Below are positions 6,619-20,995 of a stretch of DNA of 21,320 nucleotides, piece by piece (position 1 is the first letter of the stretch; the number at the start of each line of letters is the position of its first letter). The notes beneath the pieces were generated by a model, which had not been told where the DNA came from, made no database searches, and saw nothing but the letters and a program-made list of their open reading frames with translations. The stretch spans positions 1-21,320 of IMG/VR virus record IMGVR_UViG_3300042868_006362; one strand, given 5' to 3'. This stretch comes from a virus. The translations under genes were made by a program, and so were the position numbers.

Positions 6619-8207
6619 TACGCGCCACCCTCATAAGTTGTCACTGTGCGTGTAATTTCGTCGTTTTCATCGCGCTCAACTGTTTGAATAGCCTTGACTG
6701 GATGCGTGTTGTTGACGATTACTTGAGCCGCTGGCACGTTTGCTTCCATCGTCACATTCGGAGCCTCTACATTGACCGTCACTTGTGGCGCTGGCTGATC
6801 TGGCATATTGATAGTAATCGGCATTTCAGAGCCTATTGATTTGATATGTTCTGCGTGCGTCTTGGTCATTTCAAGCAATGCCGCAGATAAATGCTTTTCG
6901 ATTTCTGCCGTCTGTAAATTCAATACTGTTGGCTGTGCCGTTTGGCGGGTCGCCAAAGAATCAAGCTTGCGCTCTAAATCACTGAAACTTTTCTGCTGCT
7001 GATCTGTTGCCGCCTGATCTGCGCCTTGAGCCATGTTCAATGGAGTCAAAGGATCATCCAAACCGTCGAGCGGGTCTTTTCCTTCTTCGTCACGAATCTC
7101 ATTGCGCGTATAAATTCCCATTTCAGCCATTGTTCTAGCCCATTGCGCACGGTCTTTCATGGAACCAGCACGCATGTAGCGAGTATCAAACTCTGCGAAA
7201 AGTGGCCCTGAACCATCAAGCAATGTTTCATCGAGTCTTTGCGTCCATGCACGATGCCAAGGCGCAAGGCAATGGATCAAATGAGCCGCAAAAAACGCCT
7301 CAGAGCTTGCAAATGTACTTGTCTTGTCGCTGTGACCAATCATGATAGGAAACACGCCGTAACCTCGGCAAACTTCCTCAATCTGCAATCTGCGGGTCTC
7401 TACATGCTGCGCGTCAACACCATTCATCGACGTGCTTAACCACTTTGCGCCGCGATCCAAAACAAGCGGGTCGCCAGTATTTGCAACGCCTGTTTTTTTC
7501 TTGATCCATGCGGTTAAACGCTCATGCTGCTCGGGGTTTAATGTTCCATCGACTGAATAAGTGCCGCTTGGACGTAAGCCGTTCGCATGCATTGCCGCTT
7601 GGCTTTGTTCTGTTGCAATCGCCAAGCCAATAGCTGAACGCGCAAGGGCAACCGCATCCATGCTTGTCGCCCAATCCCACTGCGCACCGCGAATGATGAA
7701 AACATCATCAGGCTTGAACTCACCAATTAAACCAAACTCATCATAACAACGATAGCGAATCTCATAACGTGAGATTTTTTGCATTGTCCATTGGTCAGGA
7801 GCAACCGGAATTAACTCACGAACGCGCCCATTTTCACCGCGAACCTTGATTGATAAGCCAGTGCCAGTCAATGCAGCATGAATCGTCATCAAACGCCGCC
7901 ATTCAAAGGACGTTTGCCACTCATTAGCACGGCGATTTAATAGGCGATACTCAGGGATATTGATTGCTTTTTTGCGCGTTACTCGCTCACCGTCTTTGAT
8001 TTCTCGATAAACATGTAAAGGAGGCGTAGCGCAACCATCGGCAATAACTTTCACGCATGCCAATACAGTCGAAACCTGCAACGCTGTCTTTTCATTGACC
8101 GAAACGCCAGCTATTTTTACGCCACCAGAACCGCCAATTAAATCAGCTATCTGGTCGTAACTTAGCTCAGCAGCTTTTCGCCCGAGAATACGATCAAGAA
8201 ATTTCAA
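6618..8207 (-). CDS. Portal protein, HK97 family
   Basis: The 529-residue product has the family start MKFLDRILGR, then VSVNEKTALQVSTVLACVKV, ANEWQTSFEWRRLMTIH, the central NGLRPSGTYSVDG segment and FASSEAFFAAHLIHCLAPWH. These are standard HK97-type portal blocks; the protein forms the dodecameric ring through which DNA enters. The C-terminal 150 residues (after DPLDGLDDPLTPLN) are a variable tail with QQQ and a Pro/Val/Asn-rich part. The start is TTG at 8207, two bases after the terminase stop. No in-frame ATG fits the conserved N-terminus, so the weak start is likely real and may limit portal synthesis. Confidence 0.93.
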   Translation of the reverse strand: MKFLDRILGRKAAELSYDQIADLIGGSGGVKIAGVSVNEKTALQVSTVLACVKVIADGCATPPLHVYREIKDGERVTRKKAINIPEYRLLNRRANEWQTSFEWRRLMTIHAALTGTGLSIKVRGENGRVRELIPVAPDQWTMQKISRYEIRYRCYDEFGLIGEFKPDDVFIIRGAQWDWATSMDAVALARSAIGLAIATEQSQAAMHANGLRPSGTYSVDGTLNPEQHERLTAWIKKKTGVANTGDPLVLDRGAKWLSTSMNGVDAQHVETRRLQIEEVCRGYGVFPIMIGHSDKTSTFASSEAFFAAHLIHCLAPWHRAWTQRLDETLLDGSGPLFAEFDTRYMRAGSMKDRAQWARTMAEMGIYTRNEIRDEEGKDPLDGLDDPLTPLNMAQGADQAATDQQQKSFSDLERKLDSLATRQTAQPTVLNLQTAEIEKHLSAALLEMTKTHAEHIKSIGSEMPITINMPDQPAPQVTVNVEAPNVTMEANVPAAQVIVNNTHPVKAIQTVERDENDEITRTVTTYEGGA

Positions 8208-10882: not shown

Positions 10883-11532
10883 GAGCGCACCTTTTGGGGT
10901 TGAACCTGCGACCGCCCCCCCCCATAGCTCATGCCATACGGAGGGTCGGTAAACACCATGTCAGCCTTGCCGCCAGCCATCAGCGTCTCAACCGCATCAA
11001 TGCTAGTCGAATCTCCGCACATCAATCTGTGCTTACCTAGCAGCCAAACATCGCCCAACTTGCTGATTGGATCAGGCTGCACTTCTGGCACAAAGTCCTC
11101 ATCGGTCAAACCTGGTGCGATTTCTTCAGGCGTTAATGCTGCAATTTCATCGTCACTAAAACCAGTCAATGCTAGGTCATAGCCAAGCTCGCCAAGTTCT
11201 GAAAATTCAACGCGCAGCATTTCATCATCCCATCCAGCATTCAGTGCTAGTTTATTGTCAGCGATAATGTAAGCACGCTTCTGCGCATCCGTAAGGCCAG
11301 CAAGCTCGATGCATGGAGCCTCGGTAAAGCCCAATTTACGAGCAGCTAATACGCGACCATGACCTGCAATGATCCCGTTTTCACCATCGATCAAGATAGG
11401 ATTAGTCCAGCCAAATTCGCGAATGCTGGCTGCAATTTGTGCGACCTGCTCATCACTGTGAGTGCGACTATTCCTTGCGTAAGGGATTAAATCTGCAACC
11501 TTGCGCATCATGATTTCGATATTTCTACTCAT
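10879..11532 (-). pseudogene. N-terminal part of a ParB-like / DNA methyltransferase fusion (frame 1)
   Basis: The first 217 residues begin with a ParB/sulfiredoxin-like nuclease-type domain: KVADLIPYARNSRTHSDEQV, then GIIAGHGRVLAARKLGF with the GHGR loop at 57-60. The methyltransferase part starts GDVWLLGKHRLMCGDST and reaches the catalytic DPPY at 196-199. Soon after, the frame crosses nine G (10915-10923), reads RSQVQPQKVRS and stops at TGA 10881-10879. Intact fusions of this kind are common next to phage terminase genes and modify phage DNA. The ATG at 11532 has an AAGGACTT ribosome binding site. The break at a homopolymer is the notable feature; see the following frame. Confidence 0.82.
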
Positions 11533-18377: not shown

Positions 18378-18635
18378 TTAGTTAGCTGTCACATGGGTTT
18401 CTCCGGTAGTTCGCTTGCTCTTAAGTTCAGGCCAGATTTTTTGCCAGTCATTTACAAACATCTTTTTTCTAGTTACTAGACCATTTGTTTTTTGCTCAAT
18501 CAGAACGGCTTTTTCTGGTGAAATTGGCGCTTTGCCTGATGCCATTTGAGATAAGTAAGAAAGTGACACGCCGATTTCTTGCGCAAGGCTTGTAGCCCTT
18601 CCTCTTTCCTGATCAATGTAATTTTTCAGATTCAT
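18378..18635 (-). CDS. cro: Cro-like repressor (85 residues)
   Basis: From ATG 18635 (AAAGGGCAATT upstream) the product starts MNLKNYIDQERGRATSLAQE. A helix-turn-helix covers residues 14-40 (SLAQEIGVSLSYLSQMASGK), followed by ISPEKAVLIEQKTNG, the YdaS/Cro-type layout. It is the first gene of the leftward early operon and faces the CI gene across a promoter with an operator at 18660-18677. As in lambda it should turn down repressor synthesis and shift the phage to lytic growth. Longer readings from TTG would cover the promoter and are rejected. Confidence 0.88.
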   Translation of the reverse strand: MNLKNYIDQERGRATSLAQEIGVSLSYLSQMASGKAPISPEKAVLIEQKTNGLVTRKKMFVNDWQKIWPELKSKRTTGETHVTAN

Positions 18636-18657
18636 AATTGCCCTTTCGATTGAGTGA

Positions 18658-18686
18658 AGTTTAGTGTTCATTAAACCTGTTGTCAA
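18658..18686 (-). promoter_or_regulatory. Leftward early promoter (pR-like) with operator
   Basis: On the minus strand TTGACA and TAAACT are spaced by exactly 17 bases, a near-consensus sigma-70 promoter. The operator GTTTAATGAACACTAAAC (18660-18677) fills the spacer and the -10 box. Transcription would start about 20 bases before the cro ATG. The promoter is a near twin of the one at 20003-20031. Confidence 0.88.
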
Positions 18687-18708
18687 GTAAAAGTTTAGTA
18701 TTTGCTTG

Positions 18709-18726
18709 TTTAGAATTTACTAAGCA
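18709..18726. promoter_or_regulatory. Second operator near the repressor start
   Basis: GTTTAGAATTTACTAAGC has the same half-site design (GTTTAG, six bases, CTAAAC-like) as the promoter operators. It lies 11-28 bases before the CI ATG. A further single half-site GTTTAG is at 18693-18698. Binding here could control the repressor gene's own promoter, which I cannot place with confidence. Confidence 0.65.
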
Positions 18727-18736
18727 AAATAAACGT

Positions 18737-19384
18737 ATGAAACCTACTGAAATAAGACGAATAAGACTTGCTGAGTGGTTCGAGAATCGTTCGATACCGA
18801 ATGATGAGAAGAGCTACATATCACAGCTAATTAATGGGAAAGCCTCTTTTGGGGAGAAGGCAGCTCGCCGCCTTGAAACTACCTATGGCATGGGTCTTGC
18901 GTACCTAGATCGCTTAGAAATAGAGGCGATGGAAGAAGCAATGCCAACACGCCCAAATGAAATAATAATAAATCAATATAAAGATGTTGCAGGGGCAATG
19001 GGAACCGGGCTTATTTTACAAGACCAACCGGGAGAGATTATTAGTATTAGCGTAAGTGAAGAATGGGTAAGAAAGAATGTAAAGTATTGCACCTCAGTGC
19101 AAAATTTATGTGTTGTTACAGGCTTCGGTGATTCCATGGTCGGCATGTATAAGCCCGGCGATCCTCTGCTAGTAGATATTGGCGTGAAAACACTTGATTA
19201 TGATGGCGTGTATTTTTTTAGGATCGGAGACGAGGGTTTTATTAAGACTCTGCAACGAATACCAGGTGTAGGAATCAGGGTAATATCTGAGAACAAGAAA
19301 TATGAGGCATGGACTATTACAAAGGACATGCAATTTGAAATTCTCGCCAAAGTATTGAAAGCTTGGGAGGGAACTGATTTATAA
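18737..19384 (+). CDS. cI: CI-like repressor with LexA/S24 peptidase domain
   Basis: From ATG 18737 the product has 215 residues. The N-terminal helix-turn-helix covers about 23-48 (DEKSYISQLINGKASFGEKA). The C-terminal domain is of the S24 type: GFGDSMVGMYKPGD with catalytic Ser133, and FIKTL with Lys170. An Ala85-Gly86 pair in KDVAGAMG is a candidate self-cleavage site, so the repressor is probably RecA-inducible. No good ribosome binding site stands before the ATG, as for lambda cI made from a leaderless transcript. It should bind the GTTTAG-type operators at both early promoters. A lipoprotein gene follows 14 bases later in the same transcript. Confidence 0.92.
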   Translation: MKPTEIRRIRLAEWFENRSIPNDEKSYISQLINGKASFGEKAARRLETTYGMGLAYLDRLEIEAMEEAMPTRPNEIIINQYKDVAGAMGTGLILQDQPGEIISISVSEEWVRKNVKYCTSVQNLCVVTGFGDSMVGMYKPGDPLLVDIGVKTLDYDGVYFFRIGDEGFIKTLQRIPGVGIRVISENKKYEAWTITKDMQFEILAKVLKAWEGTDL

Positions 19385-19804: not shown

Positions 19805-19911
19805 CCTATTGTCTTCCTGTAGGGTCTATTGTCTGCCTATTGTCGGTTGACATTTTAATTTTATTCAAGCCAAAGATATTTACACGTAATTGACACGTAA
19901 GTTTTACACGT
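19805..19911. repeat. Two sets of short direct repeats in the gene-free gap
   Basis: CTATTGTC occurs three times (19806-19813, 19826-19833, 19837-19844). ACACGT occurs three times (19882-19887, 19893-19898, 19906-19911), spaced 11 and 13 bases, close to one helical turn. Such phasing suggests protein-binding sites. The rest of 19802-19967 is AT-rich and shows no gene. Confidence 0.5.
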
Positions 19912-19967
19912 CAACAAATATACCTATTTTTACGACAAAAACACCATTCCGCATCGCACAATAAAAA

Positions 19968-20007
19968 GTTAAGTAAATACTTAAAATAAGTTAATTATTT
20001 ACTTGAC
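19968..20007. repeat. Inverted repeat at the -35 region of the rightward early promoter
   Basis: GTTAAGTAAATA (19968-19979) and TATTTACTTGAC (19996-20007) are inverted copies with one mismatch, separated by 16 AT-rich bases. The right arm runs into the -35 box TTGACT, so a protein bound here could block or help the promoter. Confidence 0.55.
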
Positions 20008-20031
20008 TCACGGTTTAGTGTTTGCTAAAGT
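20003..20031 (+). promoter_or_regulatory. Rightward early promoter (pL-like) with operator
   Basis: TTGACT and TAAAGT are spaced by 17 bases. The operator GTTTAGTGTTTGCTAAAG (20013-20030) occupies the same place in the spacer and -10 box as in the cro promoter, and both promoters share TTTACTTGAC at the -35 side. This predicts control by the same repressor and a transcript starting near 20038. Confidence 0.82.
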
Positions 20032-20037
20032 AGATGC

Positions 20038-20610
20038 ATCGAGAAACGCAAAACACCGCGAATCAAGATAAGCCTTCCTGACTTGGTATGAATCCGAAAT
20101 CGAGCTGTGAACCCACGGATAGGAAGGCACTGAATATCGCGCAATGCTCCGTGCACGTGGCAAAGCAAATCTAGGTTGGTTTCGCGGTTCCAGCCTAACT
20201 ACTTATCAGCTTTGGCGACGTCGTTGAGTGTTAGCTACTGGCGGCAACATTGATACCAAAGTAACTCGCTGAAAGGAAAACACCCTGCTTTATGGGCGTC
20301 AGAGCTGATAAGTGGTTGAGCAACAAGGGAGCTAGTGCCTGAGTAAATAACTAGCTAGTGGTGTCAAGCACTAACCAAGATTGACTCGAAGCTTTGCCGA
20401 TGATAGCCGAATGACTCACGTAACGAGTCACTACACGCATGAGCATTGGATAGCAACGAATCGGTAAGTGGAATGCGCAAATCCCGCTGCTAGTGCTCAG
20501 TCGTGTGGTGAATGCTCAGTGGTGATGAGCACTATATACGGATCGGCACCTTGAGGTCTAGAACGTCGAGAGAATTACCGAAAGCAGGAGATCACTACCT
20601 GCCACCACTT
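20038..20610 (+). ncRNA. Candidate large structured leader RNA of the rightward early operon
   Basis: About 590 bases between the promoter and the first credible start codon (20632) show no convincing gene but many complementary segments. Helices visible by eye: 20055-20062 with 20181-20188 (8 pairs); 20072-20079 with 20121-20128 (8), enclosing 20092-20096 with 20116-20120 (5); 20196-20211 with 20303-20318 (16, two G-U); 20393-20401 with 20460-20468 (9, two G-U), enclosing hairpin 20412-20417 with 20425-20430; 20491-20499 with 20526-20534 (9, perfect); 20584-20588 with 20598-20602 (5). Loop segments 20440-20447 and 20511-20518 are complementary over eight bases, a possible kissing contact. 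No U-run terminator is seen, so transcription should continue into the small genes. I do not recognise the family. Confidence 0.6.
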
Positions 20611-20631
20611 CAATTTAACAGTGAGAGAGAC

Positions 20632-20760
20632 ATGGAAAAGAAAATCTGCACATTGACAATGCTTCGCTCTGAATTGCGAAATCACATGCTTTGGAGAGAT
20701 TCCGCTTTGCGCTCAATTATGCGCAATCAAAACGGAACTCTTTCTTACACTTGGTTTTAA
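20632..20760 (+). CDS. Small 42-residue protein, first gene of the rightward operon
   Basis: From ATG 20632 the product reads MEKKICTLTMLRSELRNHML and ends QNGTLSYTWF. A GAGAGAGA stretch precedes it. Longer readings of this frame would run back into the structured leader and are not supported. It is basic and helical; function unknown. The next gene's AAGGAG begins right at its stop codon. Confidence 0.6.
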   Translation: MEKKICTLTMLRSELRNHMLWRDSALRSIMRNQNGTLSYTWF

Positions 20761-20770
20761 GGAGATAGAC

Positions 20771-20995
20771 ATGAAAAAAGTAGATGCATTTTACTGGTTC
20801 GCCTCAGTTTTTCTAGTCAGCTTTGTTTGCTGGTTCACTGGCGACGATTTAGAAGCACAGATTGCAGCAGAGGAACACGCAAAGCACTCGCTACAACTTG
20901 CACAGCGAGAAGCAGCAGAACAGAAGGCTGAGTTTGAATACCTGGCTAAAAAAGCCGAGCGCATGACGGGCTTTGCTGGAGTGACTAGCAAATGA
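20771..20995 (+). CDS. Small membrane-anchored coiled-coil protein (74 residues)
   Basis: The product has one membrane segment at residues 7-23 (FYWFASVFLVSFVCWFT), followed by an alanine-, glutamate- and glutamine-rich helix (LEAQIAAEEHAKHSLQLAQR) that looks coiled-coil. AAGGAG lies before the ATG. The topology, one N-terminal anchor and a helical tail, resembles small phage exclusion or host-takeover proteins, but no family is recognised. The stop overlaps the next start as ATGA. Confidence 0.7.
   Translation: MKKVDAFYWFASVFLVSFVCWFTGDDLEAQIAAEEHAKHSLQLAQREAAEQKAEFEYLAKKAERMTGFAGVTSK

Follow-up and report, generated by a model that had tools for sequence, protein, structure and literature searches.

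A modular RNA with a tRNA-like domain in the early leader of a temperate phage belongs to a widespread family of phage RNA modules

Background

Among the described RNAs with which a large phage RNA may be compared, GOLLD and ROOL assemble into nanocages and are found close to tRNA islands (PMC12286853). Phages are also known to make anti-sRNAs (PMC4104026), and the abiF RNA represents a known type of RNA antitoxin, in which the RNA neutralises AbiF in trans (PMC12373285). Defences that target tRNAs, and phage tRNAs that evade them, have also been documented (PMC10264068, PMC13096335).

The window considered here, that is, the whole stretch of DNA that was analysed (21,320 nt), comes from a temperate phage of lambdoid type and is a 21.3-kb fragment in IMG/VR. 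Its terminase has 72% identity to that of Burkholderia phage Bcep176, and its replication and structural genes lie on the minus strand. The original prediction placed in it a large structured RNA as the leader of a repressor-controlled early operon, and offered as possible roles an antitermination leader like HK022 put, an RNA of the GOLLD or ROOL kind, or an antisense or decoy RNA. We find that the stretch is a real, folded, non-coding phage RNA, and that its 3' half, consisting of an A arm and a tRNA-like B domain, belongs to a widespread modular phage RNA family. The B scaffold is kept by compensatory change, while the inserts in its slot differ between phages and the modules change order and neighbours.

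Results

The gene for a CI-like S24 (LexA-type) repressor is located at 18680-19384 on the plus strand (Pfam Peptidase_S24, 1.5e-15; PHROG repressor, 1.3e-31), and nine IMG/VR relatives of this repressor were found. The gene in the Cro position (18378-18686, minus strand) matches Pfam YdaS_toxin and HTH_3, and thus encodes a YdaS/Cro-like regulator. Rightwards of the repressor gene come a small putative lipoprotein gene, a terminator-like T run, a promoter, about 590 geneless bases and, from 20632, short early genes. The first protein gene of the operon (20632-20760, plus strand; 42 aa, MEKKICTL..) has a 69% identical homologue in another viral contig, L029, and the second (20771-20995, plus strand; 74 aa, with a hydrophobic N-terminus) has homologues in the equivalent position in L029 and L034; neither matched Pfam or PHROG. 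Upstream of the early promoter, at 19880-19913, a TTACACGTAA-like repeat occurs three times and is kept in the related contig L002 amid diverged surroundings. These repeats are possibly the site of a second regulator or of the repressor.

The promoter (20003-20031, plus strand) is of the sigma70 type, with the -35 element TTGACT at 20003-20008, a 17-bp spacer and the -10 element TAAAGT at 20026-20031. Inside it, at 20014-20029, an operator-like imperfect inverted repeat, TTTAG(N6)CTAAA, can be read from the sequence. The promoter lies downstream of the repressor gene, and the original prediction had given it a CI-type operator. Conservation with L002 resumes just 3' of the promoter, at CATCGAG, six bases past the -10 element, which is the predicted transcription start. 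The leader itself spans 20038-20631 (plus strand), and wholly inside it there are no plus-strand ORFs of at least 50 aa; one ORF (20512-20760) starts within the leader and overlaps the credible 42-aa gene. Single-base, frameshifting indels relative to L002 are present within 20038-20433. A coding explanation of the leader was rejected on the basis of the ORF scan and these indels, and no conserved reading frame was found across it, so the claim of some 590 bases with no credible gene stands. The minimum free energy of 20038-20634 is -191.7, compared to -170.2 +/- 6.5 for shuffled sequences (z -3.33), and none of 100 shuffles was as stable. This stability, together with homologues that show compensatory changes, bears out the prediction of a large structured RNA in a repressor-controlled early leader.

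Searches by the repressor, by the 74-aa protein, by exact 18-20-mers and by BLAST of phages, plasmids and genomes recovered only one close copy of the RNA, that in L002. It is 84-92% identical (92% over 376 nt), while the neighbouring repressor is 59% identical, and the L002 sequence is truncated by the end of its contig. This is the only one of the nine phages with related repressors to have the RNA; L003-L007 and L010, which are related phages, have genes at that place instead, so that the leader element is one that is gained and lost. Through the homologue of the 42-aa protein, a shorter RNA (z -7.1) was identified upstream of that gene in L029. It shares with the window a long helix around CCAAAGUAA and a hairpin with the invariant loop UGCUUUAU, and a gapped pattern based on this sharing led to two further phages, L030 and L034. 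The RNA of L034 is complete and ends just before the next gene. A genome match (L022) and 27-bp matches in L024 and L025 were rejected as chance on reading, as were chance matches to the pattern in L031, L032 and L035-L037. Another complete relative, at 391-790 in L114, has the module order reversed with respect to the window, with the A arm first and the domain around the long helix last.

Three complementary segments had been listed for the leader, and all are present in the sequence. The 5' domain (20038-20194, plus strand), common to L002 only, contains a hairpin of GCCTTCCT and AGGAAGGC (20072-20128); its first ~95 nt are identical in L002, as is its predicted 8-pair helix (20055-20062 with 20181-20188). 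The following domain, C (20196-20318, plus strand), is closed by a 16-pair helix (20196-20211 with 20303-20318) that encloses CCAAAGTAA and the hairpin CCC-UGCUUUAU-GGG (20283-20296), and is also found 5' of the 42-aa homologue in L029. We consider the 16-pair helix to be real because it is kept in L002, where one G-U pair has become G-C, and because a helix of different sequence occupies the same place, around the same conserved hairpin, in five other loci (L029, L030, L034, L107 and L114). Among homologues the stem of the UGCUUUAU hairpin is CCC/GGG, CGC/GCG, CUC/GAG or CAC/GUG while its loop is invariant, and its position varies, being before, after or within other modules. Further downstream, a hairpin TGACTC-ACGTAAC-GAGTCA (20412-20430, plus strand) has the same stem in L114, and the form TGATTC..GAATCA in L064 and L005. 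In L005 this hairpin lies at 7236-7290, 3' of an ssb-like gene, in a 270-nt gap.

The A arm (20429-20510, plus strand) consists of CACUACACG-CA-UGAGCAUUG, an insert at 20449-20490, and UAGUGCUCA-GU-CGUGUGGUG, and was recognised by pattern search, covariation and folding. The window and L034 have ACGCATGAG...CTCAGTCGTG in common, and the gapped A pattern, itself derived from these two sequences, occurs in at least 119 viral stretches among the viral contigs searched. A few of these are coding chance matches; those in L041, L047, L056, L098, L115 and L125 were set aside because the sequence there is apparently coding or does not conform. Most of the stretches represent a single non-coding module, CCAA(G/C)ACGCAUGAGGAUUG - ~30 to 65 nt - CAGUCCUCAGUCGUG-UUGGUG - 27 to 113 nt - CACCAACAA, which among the matches listed is frequently tandem and frequently adjoins tRNA genes. 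In 44 distinct A arms the pairs next to the searched core vary yet stay paired, the inner pairs being formed in 42-44 of the 44, the first in 44/44 (28.5 in shuffles) and the fifth in 42/44 (24.5 in shuffles). The arm folds in isolation as modelled (z -3.99), and the arrangement helix-ACG-CA-UGAG.../...CUCA-GU-CGU-helix, immediately 5' of an acceptor-like strand, is found in the window at 20435-20505. The last of the three listed helices, of 9 pairs (20491-20499 with 20526-20534), is affected by this arm: its strands are indeed complementary, but 20491-20499 pairs instead with 20440-20448 within the A arm, which 44 distinct homologues support. The 9-pair helix can thus be no more than an alternative fold; a bulged version of it can form in L034. 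T-arm-like inserts are enriched ~11-fold (9 in 18.7 kb, compared to 0.044 per kb). In L078 (3501) and L126 (reverse complement, 371) an A arm alone is followed by an intrinsic terminator, apparently as a stand-alone small RNA.

The B domain (20503-20610, plus strand) is composed of an acceptor-like helix (20505-20510 with 20603-20608), a D-like hairpin (20514-20530), an insert (20531-20583) and a T-like hairpin (20584-20602). In its canonical form the acceptor-like helix measures 6-8 bp; AAU and a 4-bp hairpin whose loop is AGGCUGAU come next, then a variable insert, and finally a 5-bp hairpin, with AGAUCAGCA as its loop, that directly abuts the acceptor 3' strand. The D-like and T-like loops are joined by a 6-bp kissing interaction, GGUGAU (20521-20526, 5' side) with AUCACU (20591-20596, 3' side) in the window and GCUGAU/AUCAGC, ACUGAU/AUCAGU or AUUGAU/AUCAAU elsewhere. 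A reading of 20518-20524 as the acceptor strand was dropped, as this is the loop of the D-like hairpin. In 24 sequences the 21 pairs of the B core are 99.4% formed, with 31-55% in slid-partner controls, a percentage that is partly built in because the script that picked the sequences required the outer helix and both hairpins and, for most, a kissing match of at least 5. Changes on both sides, seen in 13 pairs (4.7 in shuffles), two of them kissing-loop pairs, and an independent model search are stronger evidence for B than the percentage paired. The model, R1, was a covariance model made from 16 B domains, the window, L034 and P1 not among them, and it did not include the kissing pairs. It detects the window at 20503-20610 (51.3 bits; E 6.7e-12, with E-values only approximate), and also detects P1, IME207, ZC08 and Gungnir39. 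R1 gave in addition a weak match (18 bits) on the minus strand at 11001-11042, which was rejected because it falls inside a coding gene and has neither insert nor T-like hairpin. Unconstrained folding of the two pieces, by a method that excludes kissing loops, gave the same A arm and the same positions of the B acceptor helix and hairpins.

The arm order of B, namely acceptor, 3-nt linker, 4-bp arm, slot, 5-bp arm, no linker and acceptor, and the lengths of these elements are those of a tRNA in which an insert occupies the position of the anticodon arm. Instead of NCCA, the 3' end usually reads AACAA or TCAA, and CACCAC-UUCAA in the window, and B is therefore not an aminoacylatable tRNA; the window domain was not called by ARAGORN and did not match the Rfam tRNA model. 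The outer strand of A and the acceptor strand of B both use 20505-20510, so that the outer helices of A and B are mutually exclusive. This sharing may reflect a switch, or may be a sign of processing that separates A from B. The competing pairings, of the A arm with 20526-20534 and of the A outer strand with the B acceptor, could together form a conformational switch.

B itself or close relatives of it are found in isolated phages. In HK620 and HK633 one lies in the late leader between Q and holin, in mEp460 just after the S24 repressor, that is, in the same place as in the window, in ZC08, CASP1 and Gungnir39 beside tRNAs, and in P1 between tRNA-Thr and tRNA-Ile/ban, within the ban operon that the C1 repressor controls. 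With short partial matches included, a 206-nt HK620 probe matches 636 and a 451-nt mEp460 probe 2,037 of 5,426 E. coli genomes, where the matches are unannotated save for an occasional hypothetical protein or neighbouring tRNA. In contrast to these 636 E. coli genomes, the exact patterns were found in 0/369 Gammaproteobacteria and 0/399 Burkholderiales species genomes, which is weak evidence of absence because only exact variants, in one genome per species, were covered.

This distribution bears on the first of the roles proposed. In the window, L002 and mEp460 the RNA lies directly between a repressor-controlled promoter and early genes, and the HK620 module is also in a leader. The RNA might then act in cis, its nascent fold modifying RNA polymerase by put-like antitermination or controlling translation or stability of the early operon, and the sharing of 20505-20510 by A and B and the competition of the 9-pair helix with A make switching conceivable. 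We consider such a cis-acting leader unlikely, however, as related modules are also found in tRNA clusters far from promoters (ZC08, P1, Gungnir39) and directly before terminators (L061, L078, L126), coding genes precede the RNA in L029, L030 and L034, and other phages with related repressors lack it. Antitermination of the put kind is without positive evidence, the Rfam scan of the window giving no put-like match, and the occurrence of related modules in the HK620 late leader, in tRNA clusters (ZC08, CASP1, Gungnir39, P1) and before terminators is not what would be expected of a put site that acts purely in cis.

The RNA of phiV10 and its relatives matches that of mEp460 at 83% identity as far as the first base of B, where it gives way to a genuine tRNA-Arg that begins at the G corresponding to the B start. 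This swap is the strongest indication that B takes the place of a tRNA. The mEp460 B domain in turn has copies of 96-97% identity that follow a different A arm in IME207 and in P1-like phages, which indicates that the units move independently. The interchangeability of B and tRNA-Arg between phiV10 and mEp460, and the tRNAs directly before A arms in L050, L055, L073 and L138, would fit cassettes for tRNA processing or expression, in which the arms would serve as spacers and protection for tRNAs and the tRNA-like domains would be tRNAs that have decayed but are kept for processing by RNase P and RNase Z. This is improbable, given that the window, L002, L034 and mEp460 have no nearby tRNA gene, and that the kissing loop and hairpin stems covary strongly, unlike decaying tRNAs.

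The P1 operon (L165) has A-like arms (ACAGGTAAG..) at 1705-1790 and 2210-2280, with the T-arm-like inserts AGAGGGTTCGAATCCCT and GGGTTCATATCCC; the latter recurs in another arm of the same operon. An annotated dicF-like region (L165 992-1093, P1 68791-68892) lies in the ban leader 5' of the A-like and B modules. Its presence in the same operon leader, and the existence of phage anti-sRNAs, would suit a regulatory RNA like DicF or AgvB that base-pairs with host mRNAs or sRNAs. Such a role is very doubtful, since the inserts are mostly folded themselves and by eye no invariant, seed-like single-stranded stretch recurs between phages.

In Rfam 15 the window had no match at gathering or at E<=5 beyond chance level (matches to mir-2329, isrK and Trp_leader were far below the cut-offs), and the module regions of the scanned homologue loci matched no family apart from adjacent tRNAs and abiF. 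The family thus remains as unfamiliar as it was originally, and the suggested kinship to GOLLD or ROOL is not borne out, as neither covariance model matched the window (gathering, E<=5) or the homologues. The RNA is nevertheless large, ornate, phage-encoded, modular and near tRNA genes, with strongly conserved kissing loops, and might by analogy with these nanocages assemble through its loops into an RNA-only particle. This too is improbable, as the RNA has no relation to GOLLD or ROOL in sequence or model, the kissing partners can pair inside one B domain with the geometry of a tRNA elbow, and both the inserts and the order of the modules are highly variable, a condition ill suited to a precise symmetric cage.

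Discussion

The explanation we favour overall, although tentatively, is that of a modular early leader RNA whose tRNA-like body displays inserts and which acts in trans as a decoy. As to function alone, a role in trans as a decoy or mimic, aimed at host factors that bind RNA or cleave tRNAs, seems the most likely, with somewhat greater reserve, and the antisense or decoy idea of the original prediction is thus preferred in the form of a protein-directed RNA mimic. Such a role fits the constant scaffold with fast-changing inserts, the enrichment of T-arm-like inserts, the presence of abiF in L061 and the neighbourhood of phage tRNAs. Modules in the repressor-controlled leaders of the window, mEp460 and the P1 ban operon are likewise in its favour, and the terminator-ended arrays of some loci fit, as a trans-acting RNA could end in this way. 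In L061, a module array closes with a terminator-like hairpin (2788-2824) that Rfam identifies as abiF RNA (RF03085, 54 bits). The ORFs scanned in this 4.5-kb locus included no Abi_2 gene, but the locus is incomplete and an AbiF partner could lie elsewhere. Against a decoy, the inserts of the window matched no known RNA in Rfam, abiF in L061 was the only Rfam antitoxin motif in the scanned loci, and the window RNA has no terminator of its own ahead of the first gene.

As a decoy, the RNA would be made early, upon inactivation of CI, within the left transcript. It would fold and would probably be processed by tRNA-type enzymes, or else persist in the leader, and would then act in trans, its tRNA-like body displaying a variable segment in the place of the anticodon arm. 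Host proteins that bind or cleave RNA, such as nucleases that target tRNAs or toxins controlled by RNA antitoxins, might bind or cut the decoy and not the real substrate, and the rapid replacement of inserts on an unchanging scaffold would mirror shifts in host targets. More generally, kissing-locked tRNA-like domains with interchangeable inserts, swappable with tRNAs, could be an RNA platform common to many phages, including P1 and lambdoid phages, for modular counter-defence against nucleases and RNA-controlled toxins, a proposal that we also regard as speculative. If true, it would constitute a modular RNA arm of phage counter-defence.

Irrespective of function, a strongly covarying class of structured RNA has gone without annotation in phages that rank among the best studied (P1, HK620, mEp460), and in a considerable fraction of the sequenced E. 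coli prophages. With a name, the class would offer annotators a model and structural biologists a new kind of tRNA-like fold whose elbow is a kissing loop, and it would become testable why phages keep non-coding RNA blocks beside tRNAs and in repressor-controlled leaders.

Comparison with known RNAs

A literature search by sequence and subject, with most subscription journals and many preprints outside its scope, found no description of these RNAs. Weinberg 2017 reportedly describes phage motifs of tRNA-like form under the name TLS-PK. Within the reach of these searches the family is new, although prior description elsewhere is possible, and no known phage RNA matches its tRNA-like, insert-bearing, swappable design. 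It is apparently a widespread, unnamed RNA class that is present in the classic phages P1 and HK620.

The position of the HK022 put RNA, in the leader of an early operon, is shared by the RNAs of the window and mEp460, but the present RNA is far larger and is also found outside leaders, and antitermination is without evidence. ToxI of type III toxin-antitoxin systems and the AbiF RNA (RF03085) are likewise structured RNA repeats, and theirs can neutralise a toxin protein in trans. Here the folds are unrelated, the repeats are not identical, and no toxin gene was recognised beside the window RNA by Pfam or PHROG. GOLLD and ROOL are likewise large, ornate phage and prophage RNAs of unknown function, often near tRNA islands, and GOLLD has a conserved 3' part and a variable 5' part, as here (PMC12286853). 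They differ in that their models do not match, and in that the present family is made up of small exchangeable modules with a tRNA-like core. With tRNA (RF00005) and tmRNA, B shares the order and lengths of its arms, and in phiV10 a genuine tRNA takes its place. Unlike in a tRNA, the contact between the D and T loops of B is a 6-bp Watson-Crick kissing loop, the anticodon arm gives way to an insert of 27-113 nt, and the end is AACAA or TCAA instead of NCCA.
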